NCBI GenBank assembly: GCA_017395085.1 | Contig: JAFPWF010000004.1 | Location: 1 to 54,365, forward strand | Reading direction: 5' to 3' | From: Oscillospiraceae bacterium | GTDB taxonomy: Bacteria > Bacillota > Clostridia > Oscillospirales > Oscillospiraceae | Length of the DNA: 54,365 nt | Part shown: piece by piece, positions 42,908 to 51,646 of the stretch | Layout of the letters: each line of letters opens with the position of its first letter | Numbering within the stretch: the first letter of the stretch is position 1 | Translations under genes and position numbers: made by a program | The notes under the pieces: model-generated | What the model was told of the DNA's origin: nothing | The model's input: the letters and a program-made list of their open reading frames with translations, nothing else | The model's database searches: none

Positions 42908-44077
42908 TTATGACTCCGGATCTGCCGGTTTGGCAGCTGTTTTCGGCATTGCAGAGCGGTTGCCGATTTCGATGATTCCATCCGGAGAGACTGCGCTTGC
43001 TGGCCTTGCTTCGGCGTCAGATTCCGCTTCCGGTTCGTCGGACTCCGGTTTCCCTTCCTCCCCGAAGTACCGCAGCACCATCATGGTGATGTCGTCCGCC
43101 TGCGGCGCGTCGCCGACAAAAGCGCCGACGGCTCCGCGCACGTTGTCCACCAGCTTCGCAACCGGCACATCCAGTTCCAGATTCAGCGCATCGACCATGC
43201 GCTCCAGACCGAACTCCTCATTTTCCGCATTCATGGCTTCAGTCACGCCGTCGGTATAGAGGAATACCGTATCTCCCGGTACCAGCTGAATTTCGTAACT
43301 GCGGTACTCGGTCTTGTCCATGGCGCCGAGCACCAGTCCGTGCGGATCCTTCAGCAGGATGAAATCTCTGTTTTTGTGCATCAGGCAGGGGTATTCGTGC
43401 CCGGCGTTTGCAGCCGAAAGCAGGCCGGTGGAGATTTCAAGAATCCCGAGCCACAGCGTTACGAACATGTCGGAATGATTGTTGGCGCCGATCTGCTTGT
43501 TGACGGCCTTCAGGATTTTTGCAGGGTCATGGTTCCGGTTTTTGGCCATGTTGTGGATGATGATTTTGGAAGCCATCATGAACATGGCCGCGGGGATGCC
43601 CTTTCCGGCTACGTCGGCAATAATCAGCGCCAGATGGTCCCTGTCGATCATCTGGAAATCAAAGAAGTCGCCCCCGAGCTCCTTGGCAGGTTCCGTCCGG
43701 GCGTAGACGTCGAACTCCTTCCGCTCCGGGAAGACGGGATACGTGTTGGGCAGCATATTGCTCTGGATGGTTTTGGCCAGTTCCAGTTCCATGCTCAGAC
43801 GCTCGGTTTTTTGTGCTTCGGCTTCCTGCTCCACGATGACGGAGCGGTCGCGTTTGACGCTTGCCGAGAAAACGGCAGCGGCGGCGAGCAGCAGAAAGAA
43901 TACCGGGATGAGAACGGCAGACATGGTTCCGCGCGAAACCGGAAACACATTCAGCAGCGTAAGCAGCAGGAGAAGCAGATCCAGCACCGCTGCCGCAAAC
44001 ATCACTCTCGCGGCAATCAGGCTGGTGCGGATTTCACTGTTCAGGTCATTGCTGGGCTTCTGTTGAGGCTCTGACAT
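42908..44077 (-). CDS. RsbU/SpoIIE-type PP2C serine phosphatase with two membrane spans
   Basis: 389 residues from ATG 44077 (AGGAG upstream). Two N-terminal membrane segments (about 20-44 and 52-74) are followed by a short helical linker and the PP2C/SpoIIE catalytic domain: GGDFFDF (D137), IADVAGKG (D155), LYTDGVTEAMN and ADDITMMVL supply the metal-binding Asp residues. Enzymes of this type remove phosphate from anti-anti-sigma factors in partner-switching pathways. A Glu/Pro-rich tail extends beyond the domain. No anti-anti-sigma gene is adjacent; the MATE-RsbW fusion at 10919-12709 is a possible pathway partner, and the gene is divergent from the TIR-RyR operon. Confidence 0.92.
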   Translation of the reverse strand: MSEPQQKPSNDLNSEIRTSLIAARVMFAAAVLDLLLLLLTLLNVFPVSRGTMSAVLIPVFFLLLAAAAVFSASVKRDRSVIVEQEAEAQKTERLSMELELAKTIQSNMLPNTYPVFPERKEFDVYARTEPAKELGGDFFDFQMIDRDHLALIIADVAGKGIPAAMFMMASKIIIHNMAKNRNHDPAKILKAVNKQIGANNHSDMFVTLWLGILEISTGLLSAANAGHEYPCLMHKNRDFILLKDPHGLVLGAMDKTEYRSYEIQLVPGDTVFLYTDGVTEAMNAENEEFGLERMVDALNLELDVPVAKLVDNVRGAVGAFVGDAPQADDITMMVLRYFGEEGKPESDEPEAESDAEARPASAVSPDGIIEIGNRSAMPKTAAKPADPES

Positions 44078-44122
44078 GGTCGGCGACACTCCTCTCAGTT
44101 CGGCATGGAAGATGCTGCCTGT

Positions 44123-44151
44123 ATTATACCCGATCCCTCCCGGCAGTGCAA
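44123..44151 (-). promoter_or_regulatory. Promoter of the PP2C phosphatase gene
   Basis: TTGCAC (44146-44151) and a perfect TATAAT (44123-44128) with a GG extension, 17 bases apart on the minus strand. Confidence 0.75.
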
Positions 44152-44226
44152 GAGTTCCGAACCGGAGAGCGCCCGGTTCGCCGGAAGCCCCCACTGATGG
44201 TCGGCTGCGGCCCGGCACATCCCGTA

Positions 44227-44255
44227 TTGCGCAGAGAACACGGAACGTGTATAAT
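44227..44255 (+). promoter_or_regulatory. Promoter of the HD-RyR/TIR/LRR operon
   Basis: TTGCGC (44227-44232) and a perfect TATAAT (44250-44255), 17 bases apart, 40 bases before the HD-RyR start. Confidence 0.75.
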
Positions 44256-44294: not shown

Positions 44295-46313
44295 ATGGCT
44301 TACACGGCGATAGAATCCATGCGAAAAACGAACGAGCAGCGTTTCGGGAGAGACCTGGGACCGATGCAGCCGCCGCTATACGGGAATCCGAAGCAGCCGA
44401 ATGACCTGAAGTCTTCCGCGCTGCGCTTTCTGCACGAGCGCTGCGAAGGCCTCCTGTTTGACCCGGCGGTCGAGGCGGAGGAAAAACGCACGGGAATCTA
44501 CCAGGGAAAAAGCATTTCCGCGCATCAGATCCCGTTTAATATGGAGAGGGATATCGACCGCCTTTGCCTGGAAAAATCCCTGGAAGCCTTCATTGATTCC
44601 GGCACGGCCGAGGACGCCTACACCGTTTATTACTGCTACCTGGAGATGTTCCTGCGCCGATACGGCAATTCCAAGCGGATGGTGGAGCTCCTTTCGGAGT
44701 ACGAGTCCAACGGCAGCTCCCTGCTGATGACGCACCGAGACCACTATTCCCACTCCGTCTACGTGTTCGCCCTCGGCCTTGCCATCTACGAAACCAACGA
44801 GAGCTTCCGCACCGAGTACAAAGACTATTATGACCTGAGCGGGGCGGAAGAATCCGCTGCGGCAAACCATTTTCTGGAATACTGGGGCCTGACAGCCCTG
44901 TTCCACGACATCGGCTATCCCTTTGAGCTTCCATTCGAGCAGGTGCTCAGCTATTTCGAGGTGGAAAACCAGGAACGCGGCAAGGGCAGCCTGTATCTGG
45001 CCTACCGCAACGTAGAGTCGCTGACGGAGCTCGATGAAAAGGCAGTGGACTGGTTCGAGTTCCTGTACGGGAAGCGCTTCCGGACAACGAACGAGCTATT
45101 TGCCCACAACATCACCGAGAAGCTCGGCGCGGCGTACGGATTCTCCGAGGAATACCTGCTGGACATTCTCAACACCAAACCCACGGAACCCGGCCGCTTT
45201 GAGTATCATATGGACCACGCATTTTTCAGTGCGGCGCGGTTATACCGGGAGCTTGCCGGGCAGCTGGGAGTCAGACAGCTGACACAGGCGCACGTGGATG
45301 CGCTTTCCGCCATCCTGATGCACAACAGCCTGTTCAAATTCTCCATTGCGTTCTACAAGGACAAGGAGAAGCACCGTGCCCCGATGAGGATGCGGCAGCA
45401 TCCGCTGGGCTGGCTGCTGGCCCTCTGCGACGAGCTTCAGTGCTGGGACCGCACCGCATACGGGCGGAACACACGCACGGAACTCTACCCCATGGCGGTG
45501 GACTTTGATTTCGGGAACAACGCCGTTTCGGCGGTCTATTACTACGACCAGGAAGAAGAGAAGAAGATCCACGCCTACAACGAACAGTACCGGGCCTGGG
45601 AGGCAGGCGGCAGACAGGGAAACCCGCCCCGGCTGAAGACCTACAGCGATATGGCGGGGGAGGACCGGCGCTTTGCCACGAACATTGAGAAGCTTGTTGA
45701 CACCTCCGAAATCCCCCTGACGGTCCGGCCGAGCGTCCGACCGGCGGATCACCGCAGTAAGCACATTTATCTCTCGGGCAGCAACTTCCTGCACCTGTAC
45801 GATTTTGCCGTGGCGCTCCATGCGCGGAACATGCCTTCGGATACTCCCCCACAAGCGATGGAGGCGAAGTTTAACGCAATGTCGCTGGAGTACCAGCTTT
45901 CCGGCATCAACCGCGCCAAAAGCTTCGGCCGCTATCTGAATGCGCTCGGCTGCTTCTATACGGACAGGCCTGTGGACTACGCCATGGTGACTTCCTTTAC
46001 CCCGGAACAGGCGGAGAGCATTGCTCCCCTGGAGCACGAGCGCTGGGTCCGGATCCACCGCGACATGGGCTGGCGTTACGGAACGGAGTATGAAACGCTT
46101 TCTTTGGGTGAAGAAGAGAAGGAAGCGCGTCTGACCCTGCGGGAACAGCTGCGCCGCCACCGCAGCACCATGGACGGGAACCCGACTTCGGAAGAGATTT
46201 ATGCACACTATGACACCCTGCCGGAGACAGAACAGGACAAGGACTGGAAACCTCTGAACAGCATGCTGGAGCTGCTGAAAAAATTTGACGGGCTCCGGAT
46301 TTATCACCTGTAA
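44295..46313 (+). CDS. HD-domain phosphohydrolase with a C-terminal ryanodine-receptor (RyR) domain
   Basis: 672 residues from ATG 44295 (GGAGG nine bases upstream). There is no signal or membrane segment. The N-terminal half looks like an HD metal-dependent hydrolase: H153 in HYSHSVYVF, H204-D205 in ALFHDIGYPF, H308 in MDHAFFSA and D379 in LALCDELQ. The last ~100 residues match the RyR domain: LEHERWVRIHRDMGWRYG (579-596), then TEQDKDWKPLNSML and a hydrophobic C-terminus. Bacterial RyR domains are found in nucleotide-signalling conflict systems and are thought to sense small nucleotides. It is first of four co-directional genes followed by two TIR proteins. Both domain calls are by motif; the ~200 residues between them are unassigned. 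Confidence 0.8.
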   Translation: MAYTAIESMRKTNEQRFGRDLGPMQPPLYGNPKQPNDLKSSALRFLHERCEGLLFDPAVEAEEKRTGIYQGKSISAHQIPFNMERDIDRLCLEKSLEAFIDSGTAEDAYTVYYCYLEMFLRRYGNSKRMVELLSEYESNGSSLLMTHRDHYSHSVYVFALGLAIYETNESFRTEYKDYYDLSGAEESAAANHFLEYWGLTALFHDIGYPFELPFEQVLSYFEVENQERGKGSLYLAYRNVESLTELDEKAVDWFEFLYGKRFRTTNELFAHNITEKLGAAYGFSEEYLLDILNTKPTEPGRFEYHMDHAFFSAARLYRELAGQLGVRQLTQAHVDALSAILMHNSLFKFSIAFYKDKEKHRAPMRMRQHPLGWLLALCDELQCWDRTAYGRNTRTELYPMAVDFDFGNNAVSAVYYYDQEEEKKIHAYNEQYRAWEAGGRQGNPPRLKTYSDMAGEDRRFATNIEKLVDTSEIPLTVRPSVRPADHRSKHIYLSGSNFLHLYDFAVALHARNMPSDTPPQAMEAKFNAMSLEYQLSGINRAKSFGRYLNALGCFYTDRPVDYAMVTSFTPEQAESIAPLEHERWVRIHRDMGWRYGTEYETLSLGEEEKEARLTLREQLRRHRSTMDGNPTSEEIYAHYDTLPETEQDKDWKPLNSMLELLKKFDGLRIYHL

Positions 46314-46327
46314 GCGGAGAGAAAAGC

Positions 46328-47152
46328 ATGAAAAACTGGCAGAAACGCTACCCCCCCTATGAGGGCAGCGAGCCTTATCTGTACTTTGCCTTTGCCGAAG
46401 CCGACAGCGCGAAAGCCTGGCAGATTATGCGCATCCTGCTGGAGCGAGGCTGCCGCGTCTGGTACGGCAGCGGTCCTTCCGGCAATGCGGATGAACTGCT
46501 GCGCCGGCAGGAGCGCGCCGAGGATGCCAACCTGACCCTCCTGTACCTGACAGACGCCGCCTGCGCGGACAAGGACACAAAAAGCAACATCCTCGTCAAC
46601 CAGAAGAACGGGAAGCACATTCTCTGTCTTGACCCGGACGGCGCAGACCGGCGGCTTTCCATGGGGCTGTATGAAACCGTGCCGCACCTTCCGCTGTACA
46701 GGCTCAAAAGCAGGAAAGAGATCGAGAACGCCGTGATCCGTGCGGAGGGATTCTCGCAGGAGATCCTCGGCGAGCCCGTCAGAGTCGAGGGCAGCGGTTC
46801 TCTCGGAAAACTGACCGCGCTCTTCTGTGTGCTTGCGGTTCTTCTCGCGCTTGCTTCCTTCATCGGGGGCCGGTATCTCCGCTGGTTTCAGCCGGAAGTT
46901 CCCGATGAGGTTCCGTTTACCGACCCCGTCATCCTTTCCGCCGTAAGGAACGCCGCACGGGGTGGTGCAATCACCGAGGACCTGGTGTCGGAGATCACGG
47001 TCCTTCGCCTGTCCGGCATGCCGGAGAGCTGGGAAGAACTGGAGAAACTCCCCGCACTCACGACCGTGACGCTGCCGCAGCAGGCCCTGCTGGAGGAAGG
47101 CACGCTTCCCGACGGTGACATCACCGTCGAACTGACGGGAGGCGGCGCATGA
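46328..47152 (+). CDS. Membrane-anchored TIR-like protein lacking the catalytic glutamate
   Basis: 274 residues. The N-terminal ~145 residues align with the TIR domain of the next gene: PPYEGSEPYLYFAFAEAD matches RPYEGTRPFLFISYAHKQ, and CRVWYGSG matches YRLWYDEG. Where the neighbour has the catalytic Glu in SEIRTA, this protein has Asn (N87, in SNILVNQ), and the WYDE acid is also lost. It is probably an inactive TIR used as a scaffold or regulator. One membrane span (160-181) leads to a short external part with one LRR-like unit (ITVLRLSGMPESWEELEKL). It starts 14 bases after the HD-RyR stop and overlaps the next gene by four bases. Confidence 0.78.
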   Translation: MKNWQKRYPPYEGSEPYLYFAFAEADSAKAWQIMRILLERGCRVWYGSGPSGNADELLRRQERAEDANLTLLYLTDAACADKDTKSNILVNQKNGKHILCLDPDGADRRLSMGLYETVPHLPLYRLKSRKEIENAVIRAEGFSQEILGEPVRVEGSGSLGKLTALFCVLAVLLALASFIGGRYLRWFQPEVPDEVPFTDPVILSAVRNAARGGAITEDLVSEITVLRLSGMPESWEELEKLPALTTVTLPQQALLEEGTLPDGDITVELTGGGA

Positions 47153-48312
47153 GCATCTTCTTCAGGCCCTATGAAGGGACCCGCCCCTTCCTCTTTATCA
47201 GCTACGCCCACAAGCAGTCCGAAGCGGTTGTCGACACCATCCGCATCCTGCATGAGAAGGGCTACCGCCTGTGGTATGACGAGGGCATCCCCGCCGGCAG
47301 CGACTGGCCCGCCAACATCGCGCAGCACATGCAGGGCTGTGAGAAGGTTGTTTTCTTCCTGTCCGAGCGGGCAATGGAGTCGCCAAACTGCTTCAGCGAG
47401 ATCCGCACGGCCTTCCGGGCGGGAAAGCCGATCCTGGTGGCCCGGCTGGAAAACGTCGAAGTAACGAACCCCGACTGGCAGGAGCTTCTGGCCGGAAAGC
47501 AGGTGATCCCTCTCCTGGAAAGCCCGGAGGAGCGCGCCGCCGCCATCCTGAATACGGGCTTTGTGCCGCGGCGCTTCCGCCGTTCCCGGCTGGAGGGCGT
47601 ATCCTGGCGGGTGTTCGGGCTCGCGGCTTCGCTGCTTTTCTTCCTGGCGGCTGCCGGCACATTGGGAATGCTGGCCAGCGGGCGCTGGAGCCCGGTTCAG
47701 GTGCCGGAGATCCTTGCGGAAAACCCAGTGCCGACGCCTGCCCCAACCGCACCGCCCGTCGTAGAGATCGGCGAAGCGGAACGCTACTTTGCAGTCAGTT
47801 TTCCCGATAAACAGCAGGAACGGGCGATCCGCCGCGCGCTGGGCACGCAGACCGAGGAGATCTACCGCTGGCAGCTGGCGGAAATCCCGGAGCTGTACTT
47901 CTGCGGAAACATGGTGACGGACAGCCTGGAGGCGGTCCGCTTTGACGCGGACGGCACCTGCCGCGTGAATGGCGCGCCGGTCGTGACAGGGCAGGTCTCG
48001 GACCTGAGCCTGATCGGGTATGCGGTTAAGCTGGAAAAACTCGCACTCATCTGTCAGCCGGAGATGAGGCTTTCCGACCTGAACGGCCATCTGCTTCTGC
48101 GGGAACTGAGCCTTGCGGGGAGTCCCGTATCCGACCTGAGCGCACTGAAGGAACTGCCAAGTCTGAAAACCCTGCATCTGGAACACACATCCGTGTCGGA
48201 TCTGACGCCGCTGGAAGCGTTCCCAAATCTGAAAACCGTGACGGTCAGCCGAGGGATGCTTCCGCTGCGCTGGAACGAGCGGGCCGGGTTTGCCGTTGTA
48301 TTAGTCGGATAA
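47149..48312 (+). CDS. TIR-domain single-pass membrane protein with short LRR ectodomain
   Basis: 387 residues. A canonical TIR domain (12-135): FLFISYAHKQ, GYRLWYDEGIPAGSDW, VVFFLSERAMESPNC and E84 in FSEIRTAF, the position of the NAD+-cleaving Glu in enzymatic TIRs. RRFRRSR just before the membrane span (153-176) favours the N-terminus inside the cell. A Pro/Thr linker and ~180 external residues follow, ending in leucine-rich repeats (LRELSLAGSPVSDLSALKEL, LKTLHLEHTSVSDLTPLEAF). ATGA overlap with the preceding TIR-like gene couples their translation. Whether it hydrolyses NAD+ or only signals by assembly is not known. Confidence 0.85.
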   Translation: MSIFFRPYEGTRPFLFISYAHKQSEAVVDTIRILHEKGYRLWYDEGIPAGSDWPANIAQHMQGCEKVVFFLSERAMESPNCFSEIRTAFRAGKPILVARLENVEVTNPDWQELLAGKQVIPLLESPEERAAAILNTGFVPRRFRRSRLEGVSWRVFGLAASLLFFLAAAGTLGMLASGRWSPVQVPEILAENPVPTPAPTAPPVVEIGEAERYFAVSFPDKQQERAIRRALGTQTEEIYRWQLAEIPELYFCGNMVTDSLEAVRFDADGTCRVNGAPVVTGQVSDLSLIGYAVKLEKLALICQPEMRLSDLNGHLLLRELSLAGSPVSDLSALKELPSLKTLHLEHTSVSDLTPLEAFPNLKTVTVSRGMLPLRWNERAGFAVVLVG

Positions 48313-48343
48313 ACAGAATAATACTCATCGGGAGGGTAACACC

Positions 48344-51300
48344 ATGAGCAAAACTGTAAAAGTCCTGTTCACGGAAAAAGACCGCGAGGCGCTGCAACCC
48401 GTACTGGAAGCGCTGCGCACAAAAGGCCTGCGGGTTTCCGAAGCCGCGGGAGAACTGCGGAAAGACGATACCGTGCTCGCCGCGCTCTCCGAAGCATTCT
48501 ATGCCGACCAGGCAGCGGAAGAGCGGCTGCTGGGCCTGATCGGCGCAGGCGCAGAGAACGTGATGCCGCTGCAGATGGACGCGGCGCCGATGCCGGAGGG
48601 CCTGAAAAACGCGATCTATTCCCGCAACATCATTCCCGGCACCGCACGCAGCCCCGAGCAGATTGCGGAGCGTGTTGTTGCCGCACTGCCGCAGAAGAAG
48701 AGCAGCCTGCCGAAGGTGCTTCTCATCGCCGGAATTGCGCTGATCGCCATAGTCGGCCTCCTGATCTGGCGCGCCGCACAGAACAAAACCGCAGTTCCGG
48801 AAGCCCCGGCGGATGAGATCACCATCCCGGTGGCTCTGGGCCTGACTGAAGAGGAACTTGCAGAGGTCCGCTGTGTAGCCATCATCGGGGAACACTTCAG
48901 TTATTTCAAAGCCGGGGACAAACAGCGCAGAGACGACCAGTCCTCCCAGTGGCGTGATATGCTGTTTGATCTGGGAAACGCGCAGTACCGCGAGGACACC
49001 GGCGAGTTTAACTGGTACTGGAACGAAGACGGAACGCAGGCTTCCATGACAACTTATGATCTGCGCTTCCTGTCGCTGATGCCGAACCTCGAGGAACTGC
49101 ACATGGCGAAGATTGACGTGGAGCAGGCGCCGGACCTGAGCGGGCTGCAGAAGATGAGCGTGATCTGGGCGTATGACTGCCGGATGGACGACCTGACATG
49201 GATTGCACGGTCCAACGCGTCCAAGCTGCAGATCCGCTGCCATGCGGACTATGCGCCACTCAGCGGGAGCGAGGCGCTCAAAGTGGCGATTCTGGACAGC
49301 TTTGGCGATACGCCGACGGACTTTTCTTCCTTCTCCCCGAAGCATCTGCAGGAATTCCATCTGAGCGGCTGGAATCTGGACAGCATCGATCTGTCCGGGC
49401 TCAAAGCCTGCGGCGAACTGCGGCAGCTCAGGCTCCACTCCGTGCCCGTGCGGGATCTGTCGTTCCTTCAGGGGAATACAAAACTGACGGAACTGCAGAT
49501 GGATGAGCTGAACGAGCTGCGTGACATCTCCGCCCTTCGCGGGTTGAGCGGACTCAGGGAACTGAACATCTCCCCTGCCGAGCGGATTGCCGATCTCTCT
49601 CCGATTGCGGGCTGCACATCTCTGAAAGGCATCCTGCTGGATACCCATGAGGGGAGAGTTCGGGATGTCTCCTTCCTCAAAGATCTGAAGAATCTTGAGC
49701 GGATCGATCTGTACGGCGTGGATCTGCAGGACCTGAACTTCCTGGAAGAACTCGGGCAGCAGCACAGATCAATTCGCCTGGCTGTAGAAGGCAACTGCAG
49801 CGACTGGTCCGGTCTCAGTGCAATTGATCTCTACAGCACCCTTCAGCTCACACCCTGGGAGTATGAAAGCCTTGACGACATCCTGCCGCATCTTGAAAAT
49901 GCAACAATCCGGGAGTTTGTTCTGCGGCGGTTCTCCGGAGTTGATCTCTCCAGACTGCCCAGGATCACGGACCGTCTGGAACTGGACAGCTGTGACCTGG
50001 AAGACCTTTCCACCATGCCGGAAAACTGGAGTGTGACGTCGCTGAATCTTAACAAGTGCTCCAGGCTGCGCTCTTTGGACGGTCTGCAGAACCAGAATCA
50101 GATCGGCAGCGGATACGGCCGCCTGGAGATCTTCCAGTGCCCGCGCCTGACGGACTGGAGCGCACTTGATGGGATGAAGCTTACCTCCCTGTTCATCACA
50201 GGCGGTTTTACGCTGCCTTCCTTCGAAAACCTCCGGGTCAGCGAACTGCGCCTGGACAGCGTGGCGGATGTGGCTGATCTGGAATTTCTGAATGCGATGG
50301 ATGCCGGGCAGAACTGCAATTTTGCACTGGTCGGACTTGATGAATTGAAGAATCTTTCACCGCTCAGCCGCTTCCACGGTCAGTTCCTGGCAGTGTCCCC
50401 GCAGCTTCAGGAGCAGGCGGAAGATCTGGTCAAGGCCGGTAATTTCTGGGAGTTCCGCATCGAATACCCCGAAGGCGGATGGGAAATGGACGACATGGAC
50501 TTCTCCCTGCTGAGCCTGGACGAGCTGGAAACCCTGCCTCCCGCCCTGCTGCGCCGGATCGACCGTGTCTGCATTGCGGGCGATCAGGTCGTCGATCCGG
50601 ACGTTTACGAGGTATGGGATGACTGGGAGCATTGTGATGCTCACGACAAACCGGGCGCCGTGCTCCACAACCGGCAGACGGACGAGGAAACGCGGTTGAA
50701 ACAGGGGAGCATCACGGACCTGAGCATGTTCTCGGAGCTGACCGGATTGCGGGATCTGAGACTGTATGCACAGCCCATCACCAGTCTGGACGGAATTCAG
50801 AACCTCAGCAATCTTCAGCAGGTCACCGTGGCCTACTGCAGCAACCTGAAGGACGCTTCCCCGATTTTTGCCCTGCAGGATCTCTGGGAAGTCAACCTGC
50901 GCGCCACATCGGTGGAGAGCATTCAGGGCGTGCAGAACCTGCAGCAGCTGCGGCGGCTGGATCTTTACCGTTCGGATGTGACGGATCTCTCGCCCCTTGC
51001 AGGCTGTGATTTCCATGCGGCTGCCGAGCAGAACGGATTCTCCCTGAATCTGGAAGGTTCAGACCGTGTCCACTTTGAAGATCTCAGCGCACTGGCAAGC
51101 ATCCCGCGTTTTGACTGGCTTTGTCTGAACAACATCGATGCTTTGCAATGGCTCCCGTACGTGGAAGGGGCTGACATCTGCTCACTCGGCGCGTGCAACG
51201 CGCTTGATGACGACAGCTTATCCGCCTTTATTCAGACGCATCCGGGTATCGAAGAACTGCATATTCAGTGGAATGAAGACATTCATGACCTGTCCGGACT

Positions 51301-51409
51301 TCTGGACCTGCCGAATCTGAGAACGGTCAGGGTTTCACGAACCATGGAGGATGCCATCCGGAGCCTGGAGGGGACCGATTATCACTTTGAGCTTTTTGTG
51401 GAGGGATAA
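48344..51409 (+). CDS. Giant leucine-rich-repeat membrane protein with N-terminal TIR-like domain
   Basis: 1021 residues. Residues 1-118 look like a reduced TIR fold (VKVLFTEKDREALQPVLEAL, LAALSEAFYADQAAEERLL), without the usual WYDE or catalytic Glu pattern. A membrane span (122-143) is preceded by Lys-rich LPQKKSS, so the ~870-residue C-terminal region is predicted outside the cell. That region contains many SDS22/internalin-like LRR units (LTELQMDELNELRDISALRG, LRDLRLYAQPITSLDGIQNL, LRRLDLYRSDVTDLSPLAGC). It has no sortase or SLH anchor. It is last in the HD-RyR/TIR operon, 31 bases after the TIR gene, with GGGAGGG upstream of ATG. Ligand unknown. Confidence 0.85.
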   Translation: MSKTVKVLFTEKDREALQPVLEALRTKGLRVSEAAGELRKDDTVLAALSEAFYADQAAEERLLGLIGAGAENVMPLQMDAAPMPEGLKNAIYSRNIIPGTARSPEQIAERVVAALPQKKSSLPKVLLIAGIALIAIVGLLIWRAAQNKTAVPEAPADEITIPVALGLTEEELAEVRCVAIIGEHFSYFKAGDKQRRDDQSSQWRDMLFDLGNAQYREDTGEFNWYWNEDGTQASMTTYDLRFLSLMPNLEELHMAKIDVEQAPDLSGLQKMSVIWAYDCRMDDLTWIARSNASKLQIRCHADYAPLSGSEALKVAILDSFGDTPTDFSSFSPKHLQEFHLSGWNLDSIDLSGLKACGELRQLRLHSVPVRDLSFLQGNTKLTELQMDELNELRDISALRGLSGLRELNISPAERIADLSPIAGCTSLKGILLDTHEGRVRDVSFLKDLKNLERIDLYGVDLQDLNFLEELGQQHRSIRLAVEGNCSDWSGLSAIDLYSTLQLTPWEYESLDDILPHLENATIREFVLRRFSGVDLSRLPRITDRLELDSCDLEDLSTMPENWSVTSLNLNKCSRLRSLDGLQNQNQIGSGYGRLEIFQCPRLTDWSALDGMKLTSLFITGGFTLPSFENLRVSELRLDSVADVADLEFLNAMDAGQNCNFALVGLDELKNLSPLSRFHGQFLAVSPQLQEQAEDLVKAGNFWEFRIEYPEGGWEMDDMDFSLLSLDELETLPPALLRRIDRVCIAGDQVVDPDVYEVWDDWEHCDAHDKPGAVLHNRQTDEETRLKQGSITDLSMFSELTGLRDLRLYAQPITSLDGIQNLSNLQQVTVAYCSNLKDASPIFALQDLWEVNLRATSVESIQGVQNLQQLRRLDLYRSDVTDLSPLAGCDFHAAAEQNGFSLNLEGSDRVHFEDLSALASIPRFDWLCLNNIDALQWLPYVEGADICSLGACNALDDDSLSAFIQTHPGIEELHIQWNEDIHDLSGLLDLPNLRTVRVSRTMEDAIRSLEGTDYHFELFVEG

Positions 51410-51496: not shown

Positions 51497-51537
51497 CCAA
51501 CCGGAAAGCGGTTTTTCTTGACACGCTTTCCGGTTGG
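51497..51537. terminator. Perfect 14-bp inverted repeat overlapping the tRNA promoter
   Basis: CCAACCGGAAAGCG (51497-51510) pairs with CGCTTTCCGGTTGG (51524-51537) across a 13-base loop that contains a T-run and TTGACA. A shorter alternative hairpin, AACCG-GAAAG-CGGTT followed by TTT, would act as a terminator for the LRR operon. The 3' arm is the spacer of the tRNA promoter. Confidence 0.7.
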
Positions 51538-51560: not shown

Positions 51561-51646
51561 GCCGGCGTGGTGGAATGGTAGACACCAGGGACTTAAAATC
51601 CCTTGCAGGAAACTGCGTACCCGTTCGAGTCGGGCCGCCGGCACCA
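51561..51646 (+). tRNA. tRNA-Leu (anticodon TAA)
   Basis: 86 bases with an encoded CCA. Acceptor stem GCCGGCG/CGCCGGC with discriminator A; anticodon stem AGGGA/TCCCT with loop CTTAAAA, so anticodon TAA (51594-51596), reading UUA; a long variable arm (TTGCAGGAAACTGCG region) as in class II tRNAs; T arm around GTTCGAGTC. Confidence 0.96.

Follow-up and report, generated by a model that had tools for sequence, protein, structure and literature searches.

What kind of system is encoded by an operon that places a predicted HD hydrolase with a ryanodine receptor (RyR) domain next to three membrane proteins bearing TIR or TIR-like domains? The question is raised by positions 44295 to 51409 of contig JAFPWF010000004.1 of an Oscillospiraceae bacterium (assembly GCA_017395085.1); the whole stretch of DNA analyzed, 54,365 nucleotides long, is referred to here as the window. 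Our best reading is that this operon supplies one half, the receptors and the enzyme, of a nucleotide-signaling system that is conserved and horizontally spread. A first-pass annotation of the window had recognized a four-gene operon, and we found its four open reading frames (ORFs) where it had placed them, all on the forward strand and each with an ATG start. In order, they are HD-RyR (44295-46313, 672 amino acids), p2 (46328-47152, 274 amino acids), p3 (47149-48312, 387 amino acids) and p4 (48344-51409, 1021 amino acids), with intergenic spacing of 14, -4 and 31 bases.

HD-RyR is a predicted HD hydrolase with a probable RyR domain

The HD-RyR protein contains the ligand residues of an HD-type enzyme: H153, H204-D205, D307-H308, H343-N344 and D379. 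This H..HD..H..H..D set is unchanged in 11 of 11 aligned HD-RyR proteins, five of them from a distant subfamily. Across 33 HD-RyR sequences (the window protein plus 32 from the best 120 of 2062 matches), the ligands are invariant, except for D379, which is nearly so. In the window protein, residues 559-601 match the Pfam RyR family (PF02026) at E = 0.034 and 14.8 bits, below the cut-off of 27.4. A match at E ≤ 0.1 was found in 11 of the 33 relatives (best E = 0.0037), and a homolog on the IMG/VR contig L177, described below, scores 22.0 bits. A distant 576-amino-acid homolog from the same type of operon reaches 43.3 bits, above the cut-off, and it is because of this clear match that we assign the RyR identity to the window protein as well. 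The distant homolog also matches 3nrt, annotated as a putative ryanodine receptor (E = 6e-10), RyR2 (E = 1e-9) and, most strongly, an RyR1 chimera (6uhi, E = 9e-21).

Other searches were less specific. Foldseek with full-length HD-RyR returned nothing below E = 0.001, with ryanodine receptor entries ranking 2nd and 23rd (E = 0.35 and 1.6), and VIA pointed towards phosphodiesterase (PDE) and PPX/GppA HD folds. PADLOC-DB held no match for HD-RyR at E ≤ 1. The sole match of an HD-RyR profile search against PDB sequences, an alcohol dehydrogenase, was at chance level and was set aside. As judged by sequence comparison, HD-RyR is probably a genuine RyR-bearing protein with a conserved HD-type ligand set, in agreement with its initial description as a soluble HD hydrolase with an RyR domain. 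An HD-RyR homolog at 39% identity is also present in an unannotated 8.3-kb record titled "Bacteriophage sp." (MT836912.1:3916-6195).

A predicted catalytic-type TIR is accompanied by two degenerate TIRs

Each of the remaining proteins has a single strongly hydrophobic segment, located near residue 170 in p2, 159 in p3 and 132 in p4. In p3, a TIR domain with a catalytic-type glutamate (Glu84) is followed by the membrane segment, a Pro/Thr-rich linker and a short leucine-rich repeat (LRR) domain, with Pfam matches to TIR_2 (66.2 bits) and LRR_4 (39.7 bits). p4 consists of a degenerate TIR fold, the membrane segment and a large internalin-like LRR domain (LRR_4, 75.1 bits), and p2 of a degenerate TIR, the membrane segment and a short C-terminal domain. 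There was no Pfam match for p2 at E ≤ 1, and its TIR was recognized by profile comparison with p3 (probability 98.8). The N-terminus of p4 was likewise identified as a TIR by profile comparison (probability 92.5). Two smaller sequence sets comprised 13 of 20 p3 sequences plus two other TIRs, and 12 of 21 p2 sequences. When an AlphaFold model of p4 was searched with Foldseek, the 38 best PDB matches were all TIR-containing chains (best E = 1.9e-5). Profile comparison and structure prediction, the check suggested along with the first-pass annotation, recovered both the TIR and the RyR domains.

The catalytic-position glutamate is found in 19 of 19 aligned p3 sequences (as Glu84), 0 of 21 p2 sequences and 2 of 26 p4 sequences, in alignments that include 19 of 20 p3 sequences, all 21 of p2, and 24 of 25 of p4 plus two from L119, a locus of the distant HD-RyR subfamily. 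We class the p3 TIR as catalytic-type and those of p2 and p4 as degenerate on the basis of these alignments. All three membrane proteins had been thought to join a TIR or TIR-like domain to LRRs. This holds for the TIR of each and for the LRRs of p3 and p4, but not for p2, in which no LRR family was recognized and only about 75 residues follow the membrane segment. PADLOC-DB gave no match for p2 or p4 at E ≤ 1 and, for p3, matches at the level of the TIR only, the best of them between the TIR part of p3 and a SAVED-TIR model (E = 3.5e-6). Elsewhere in the window's own genome (G000), two further ORFs bear TIRs (G000:C19:119144-119443 and G000:C53:17008-17298), which are 38% and 32% identical to that of p3.

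The operon is conserved, patchy and probably horizontally spread

HD-RyR relatives were collected by a scan of genome contigs in which the best 80 of 353 were kept, a sample that leans toward close relatives. The titles of these 80 loci (L numbers; G numbers denote genomes of the genus) are those of Firmicutes, many from ruminant gut sites. Neighborhoods were counted by domain position, with a TIR threshold of 35 bits and TIR profiles built from the ORFs of these same loci, and a locus was considered complete if it extended at least 5 kb before and at least 7 kb after HD-RyR (49 loci). Within 10 kb of HD-RyR, 34 of the complete loci had a TIR, 22 had a protein combining SLOG and SLATT domains (SLOG-SLATT), 39 had either and 17 had both; 5 had SLOG-SLATT without a TIR and 10 had neither. 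The p3 and p4 set was present in 18 of the 49, and 13 of those 18 also encoded SLOG-SLATT. Over all 80 loci, 71 TIR domains lay within 7 kb (914,241 bases), and the five found beyond (314,102 bases) were all in the same operons. This survey, the other check that had been suggested, found the four genes conserved together. The 4-base overlap between p2 and p3 was itself retained in 17 of the 19 operons in which the two genes are listed as adjacent. Two operon orders occur, with HD-RyR either first or after p4; the gene-order list misses SLOG-SLATT genes where an over-long ORF overlaps p4, as in L011. In L119 and L120, the distant HD-RyR subfamily is encoded in one operon together with p3, p4 and SLOG-SLATT.

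SLOG-SLATT without a TIR within 10 kb was seen in 9 of the 80 loci. Four of these (L025, L036, L044 and L073) are on short contigs, with L073 holding a p2-like fragment, and two others (L060 and L062) have weak TIR-like matches of 20-22 bits, under the threshold. In 5 of the 49 complete loci, HD-RyR adjoins SLOG-SLATT with no TIR within 10 kb, and its role may thus go beyond that of an accessory to TIRs.

A second class of partner follows HD-RyR in 18 of the 80 loci (L018-L020, L023, L024, L026, L028-L030, L032, L034, L037, L039, L040, L055, L056, L066 and L068). It is mostly a protein of about 745 amino acids that carries a pair of TIR-like stretches (three in one case); both members that were scanned also contain Sel1 and TPR repeats. 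At some other HD-RyR loci, the partner is a single TIR protein.

The same association was evident at the level of whole genomes. Among 101 from the genus, at thresholds of E ≤ 1e-20 for HD-RyR and E ≤ 1e-60 for both p3 and SLOG-SLATT, HD-RyR was found in 29, of which 20 have a full-length copy, 3 have fragments and 6 have a copy of the distant subfamily. The corresponding numbers were 24 for p3 and 23 for SLOG-SLATT. HD-RyR was present in 23 of the 24 p3 genomes and in all 23 SLOG-SLATT genomes, and p3 and SLOG-SLATT occurred together in 20. Fisher p-values were 3e-16 for HD-RyR with p3 and 1.5e-17 for HD-RyR with SLOG-SLATT, though these overstate independence, as the genomes are related. With HD-RyR restricted to full-length copies, p3 was found in 17 of 20 genomes compared to 7 of 81 others (Fisher p = 4e-11, uncorrected for relatedness), and SLOG-SLATT also in 17 of 20. 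In G078, the sole p3 genome lacking HD-RyR, the contig with p3 is 5.65 kb long and breaks off within p2; together with the window's own genome, G005 and G030, G078 makes up the four p3 genomes without SLOG-SLATT. Three SLOG-SLATT genomes lacked p3 (G046, G051 and G087), and three HD-RyR genomes lacked both (G065, and G044 and G050, where HD-RyR is in fragments). G026 has HD-RyR alone on a 67-kb contig, with p2-p3-p4-p4 and p4-SLOG-SLATT on other contigs. Order-wide, HD-RyR was found in 4 of 295 genomes, the window's own included.

Across 17 complete operons, mean pairwise identity was 0.66 for HD-RyR, 0.56 for p3, 0.48 for p2 and 0.41 for p4, with 0.56 for SLOG-SLATT (n = 10). A slowly evolving HD-RyR and a rapidly evolving p4 LRR protein are as would be expected for fixed chemistry combined with a varying sensor. 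The distance matrices of HD-RyR, p2, p3 and p4 from these operons were correlated in all six pairings (Mantel r 0.62-0.93, with 0 of 2000 permutations as high). Mobility of the HD-RyR gene is illustrated by the IMG/VR contig (L177:393-10046), which encodes HD-RyR at 60% identity along with an actin-like protein and the same helix-turn-helix (HTH) family that lies upstream of some operons (see below). Pfam matches on L177 score 67 bits for a large serine recombinase and 291 bits for a MobA/MobL relaxase, and therefore the HD-RyR gene travels on a mobilizable element; L177 reads as such an element filed as viral. A plasmid search gave no match.

A SLOG-SLATT membrane protein is the likely effector

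The SLOG-SLATT partner is 530 amino acids long. In an alignment of 19 of 20 sequences, Pfam DUF4231 was matched by 17 (best E = 1.6e-5) and the YAcAr SLOG by 11 (best E = 7e-6); the single copy with scores shown falls below the cut-offs for both. We take DUF4231 to belong to SLATT. A profile search against PDB sequences yielded one weak KtrA match only, which we set aside. SLATT proteins are predicted, in excerpts of PMC9503650, to be membrane effectors regulated by ADP-ribose derivatives, and SLOG-SLATT is likely the effector of the system described here. The four-part model of the first-pass annotation needs revision on two counts: relatives add this fifth component, and all TIRs but that of p3 are degenerate.

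SLATT proteins without a SLOG domain directly follow HD-RyR in three loci (L025:4452-5396, L036:2459-3574 and L044:2530-3513), and DUF4231 was matched by both of those checked (L025 and L044). This pair is possibly a minimal two-gene form. All three are on short contigs with 0.4-2.4 kb of upstream sequence, and a TIR could lie further upstream.

A proposed signaling pathway and its alternatives

Taking these components together, we propose a pathway in which LRR-TIR receptors give rise to an NAD+-derived signal that is handled by HD-RyR and acts on the SLOG-SLATT membrane effector, a reading to which we assign a probability of roughly 45%. p2, p3 and p4 would sit in the membrane as one receptor complex, with the TIRs inside and the LRRs outside. 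A cue bound by the LRRs would bring the TIRs together, with p3 serving as the sole catalytic subunit, scaffolded by the degenerate TIRs of its two partners. p3 would then split NAD+ to produce an ADP-ribose-type messenger. As a predicted soluble metal phosphohydrolase with an RyR module, HD-RyR would bind and process the nucleotide and so set the signal's level or duration. Either the messenger itself or a processed form of it would be read by the SLOG domain of SLOG-SLATT, and the SLATT part would make the membrane leaky, leading to growth arrest or cell death. The TIR-to-SLOG step is modeled on Thoeris, where a TIR protein makes the 3'cADPR that is bound by the SLOG of ThsA (PMC11204291), and the membrane step on what PMC9503650 predicts for SLATT.

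We place HD-RyR between messenger and effector, converting or removing the nucleotide, with moderate confidence, because it is present in 23 of 23 SLOG-SLATT genomes and adjoins SLOG-SLATT in five complete loci with no TIR nearby. Of the earlier suggestion that HD-RyR senses or degrades the TIR signal, the RyR domain and the HD ligand set are supported.

Two observations weigh against the proposed pathway. Searches of the window's own genome, 84.5% complete, turned up no SLOG-SLATT gene. In addition, PADLOC and Pfam gave no strong sign of a defense island in the sampled flanks, and we rejected that idea. Fifteen class-A loci contributed 105 flanking proteins (from 136 in 21 loci; the 31 of the other six were excluded), among which PADLOC matched 13 families at E ≤ 1e-8, each with 1 or 2 members: mad1, mad2, mad3, mad8, GlgB, pVip (two models), DndA, SspA, DpdF, RT-Protease XI (two models) and AriA. 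Several of these are, in our judgment, metabolic look-alikes, and the mad matches may mark one MADS-like system. For Pfam, the first 25 of 135 flank families were seen. Defense as the purpose of the system is what we infer.

The alternative that survives best, rather doubtful in our view, makes HD-RyR itself the toxic effector: its RyR domain would sense the TIR product and its HD domain would drain a nucleotide pool, with SLOG-SLATT as a second effector. Such a role would explain operons without SLOG-SLATT, such as that of the window. It fits the retention of HD ligands even in the distant subfamily and the position of HD-RyR as the slowest-evolving component, and a nucleotide-controlled HD dGTPase is known from Clover (PMC12265719, in excerpt). 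However, were HD-RyR an effector in its own right, its presence in every SLOG-SLATT genome and the SLOG-less SLATT genes directly after it on three short contigs would be harder to understand. This co-occurrence and adjacency suggest that HD-RyR serves SLATT rather than replacing it.

It is unlikely that the operon instead uses TIR chemistry to sense the surface for ordinary physiology (envelope, neighbors, diet or host cues) and has no part in phage defense. The patchy distribution (29 of 101 genus genomes and 4 of 295 order genomes), the related copy on the mobilizable element L177, with its recombinase and relaxase, and the prediction of SLATT as a membrane effector (excerpts of PMC9503650) all run counter to a housekeeping role, even though the flanks lack strong defense-island signs, the LRRs would face outward if the predicted topology is right, and LRRs related to those of p3 and p4 are found on kinase-transmembrane-LRR proteins beside the operon in 10 of 80 loci.

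The pathway that we prefer depends on where the LRRs reside. They had been proposed to read an outside signal, and in this respect we predict that the LRRs of p3 and p4 are outside and their TIRs inside, a topology that fits the charge bias of the N-side over the C-side of the membrane segment (18 of 20 p3 and 21 of 25 p4 sequences, with a weak bias of 11 of 21 in p2). That the hydrophobic segments anchor the proteins at the inner face, with unexposed LRRs binding an intracellular cue, is highly improbable: the weak bias of p2 and a Cys content of 19.6 per 1000 residues in the p4 LRR domain, rather high for an exported domain, would favor it, but with a single pass through the membrane TIR and LRR end up on opposite faces, the p3 and p4 charge bias opposes it, and Cys is indecisive as a topology test, as secreted-like proteins of these loci are nearly as Cys-rich (15.7, n = 10, versus 18.6, n = 65).

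Relation to described systems

The first-pass annotation knew of no system with this composition. We likewise found no description of the gene set among the open-access papers listed by our literature searches, and an earlier mention elsewhere is possible; nor did the searches find a paper with both SLATT and ryanodine. By analogy, the system is best read as Thoeris-like logic in a new architecture. In Thoeris (ThsB TIR with a SIR2-SLOG or transmembrane-macro ThsA), a TIR enzyme likewise makes an NAD+-derived product, and a separate effector, with a SLOG domain or in the membrane, reads it (PMC11204291). Here, in contrast, the TIRs are membrane-bound with LRRs, there are three per system, two of them degenerate, HD-RyR is present and relatives use SLOG-SLATT. 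p3 scored 21.2 bits for ThsB_TIR, a value identical to the cut-off, and matched the PADLOC ThsB model at E = 6e-4 and NCBIfam ThcB4 at E = 0.085. At E ≤ 1, none of the four window proteins matched SIR2, macro or the PADLOC ThsA models of the Thoeris effector, and none matched a CD-NTase of CBASS (Pfam, PADLOC and NCBIfam).

A nucleotide-centered conflict network of TIR, SLOG and SLATT was reportedly set out by Burroughs and colleagues in 2015. Such a network, with SLATT predicted to control membrane permeability, is also described in PMC9503650. The TIR, SLOG and SLATT parts are shared with our system, which differs in its membrane LRR receptors and constant HD-RyR partner. Clover also ties an HD phosphohydrolase to a signaling nucleotide, but its signal maker is a nucleotidyltransferase (NTase) rather than a TIR, and RyR, LRR and SLATT do not appear for Clover in excerpts of PMC12265719. 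The Swarozyc and DUF4062 TIR-like NADases follow a similar NADase logic, DUF4062 having recently been described as a TIR-like NADase (PMC13174449, in excerpt), but they lie outside the window operon.

Similar to animal Toll-like receptors, the proposed receptors would have LRR and TIR on opposite sides of the membrane, joined by one membrane pass. They differ in that the TIR comes first, reversing the order, in having three co-operonic subunits and in a catalytic-type TIR; the likeness is one of plan only, and we do not claim descent. A transmembrane TIR pathway on this reversed Toll-like plan, with LRRs that read an outside cue, a multi-subunit TIR complex inside that makes an NAD+-derived messenger and HD-RyR coupling it to SLOG-SLATT, is a tentative idea that we consider less likely than not. 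To our knowledge, described bacterial TIR alarms read cues inside the cell, and this would be a case of TIR signaling triggered from outside. If the plan is real, bacteria would share it in combination with an enzymatic TIR and its origin would become testable, and the bacterial RyR and SLATT domains would gain a pathway with a defined set of partners. PADLOC-DB does not cover the set, which is found repeatedly in uncultured Firmicutes of the rumen and gut.

Operon boundaries and neighboring genes

The start of HD-RyR at 44295 is preceded by GGAGG, read directly from the sequence, as was a candidate -10 box on the forward strand, TATAAT (44250-44255), 17 bases after TTGCGC (44227-44232). The operon had been assigned its own promoter, and TTGCGC-17-TATAAT is a candidate for it, but TTGCGC agrees with the -35 consensus in no more than 3 of 6 positions and a promoter consensus scan did not list the pair. 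After p4, a forward-strand hairpin with arms of about 14 bp (51497-51537) is the probable end of the operon; a scan lists an overlapping stem at 51499-51513. It is directly followed by a tRNA-Leu (taa) gene on the same strand (51561-51646). Upstream and divergent, on the reverse strand, is a SpoIIE-type phosphatase with two hydrophobic segments (42908-44218).

In relatives, an HTH gene and then a Ser/Thr kinase-transmembrane-LRR gene (568-582 amino acids) are found upstream of the operon (L006:7641-9864). The pair recurs in L010, L011, L014, L015, L017 and L032, and the family in 10 of 80 loci. The LRR part of the kinase protein matches the p3 and p4 profiles, making it a receptor-kinase-like neighbor. 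A DUF4062-NACHT gene with a 361-amino-acid partner adjoins HD-RyR in L017 (12732-16601) and L032. In L026 (14363-18040), the TIR-TPR gene is followed by a 163-amino-acid ORF that we read as a small phosphatase, with no Pfam match, and then by a kinase-TPR protein.

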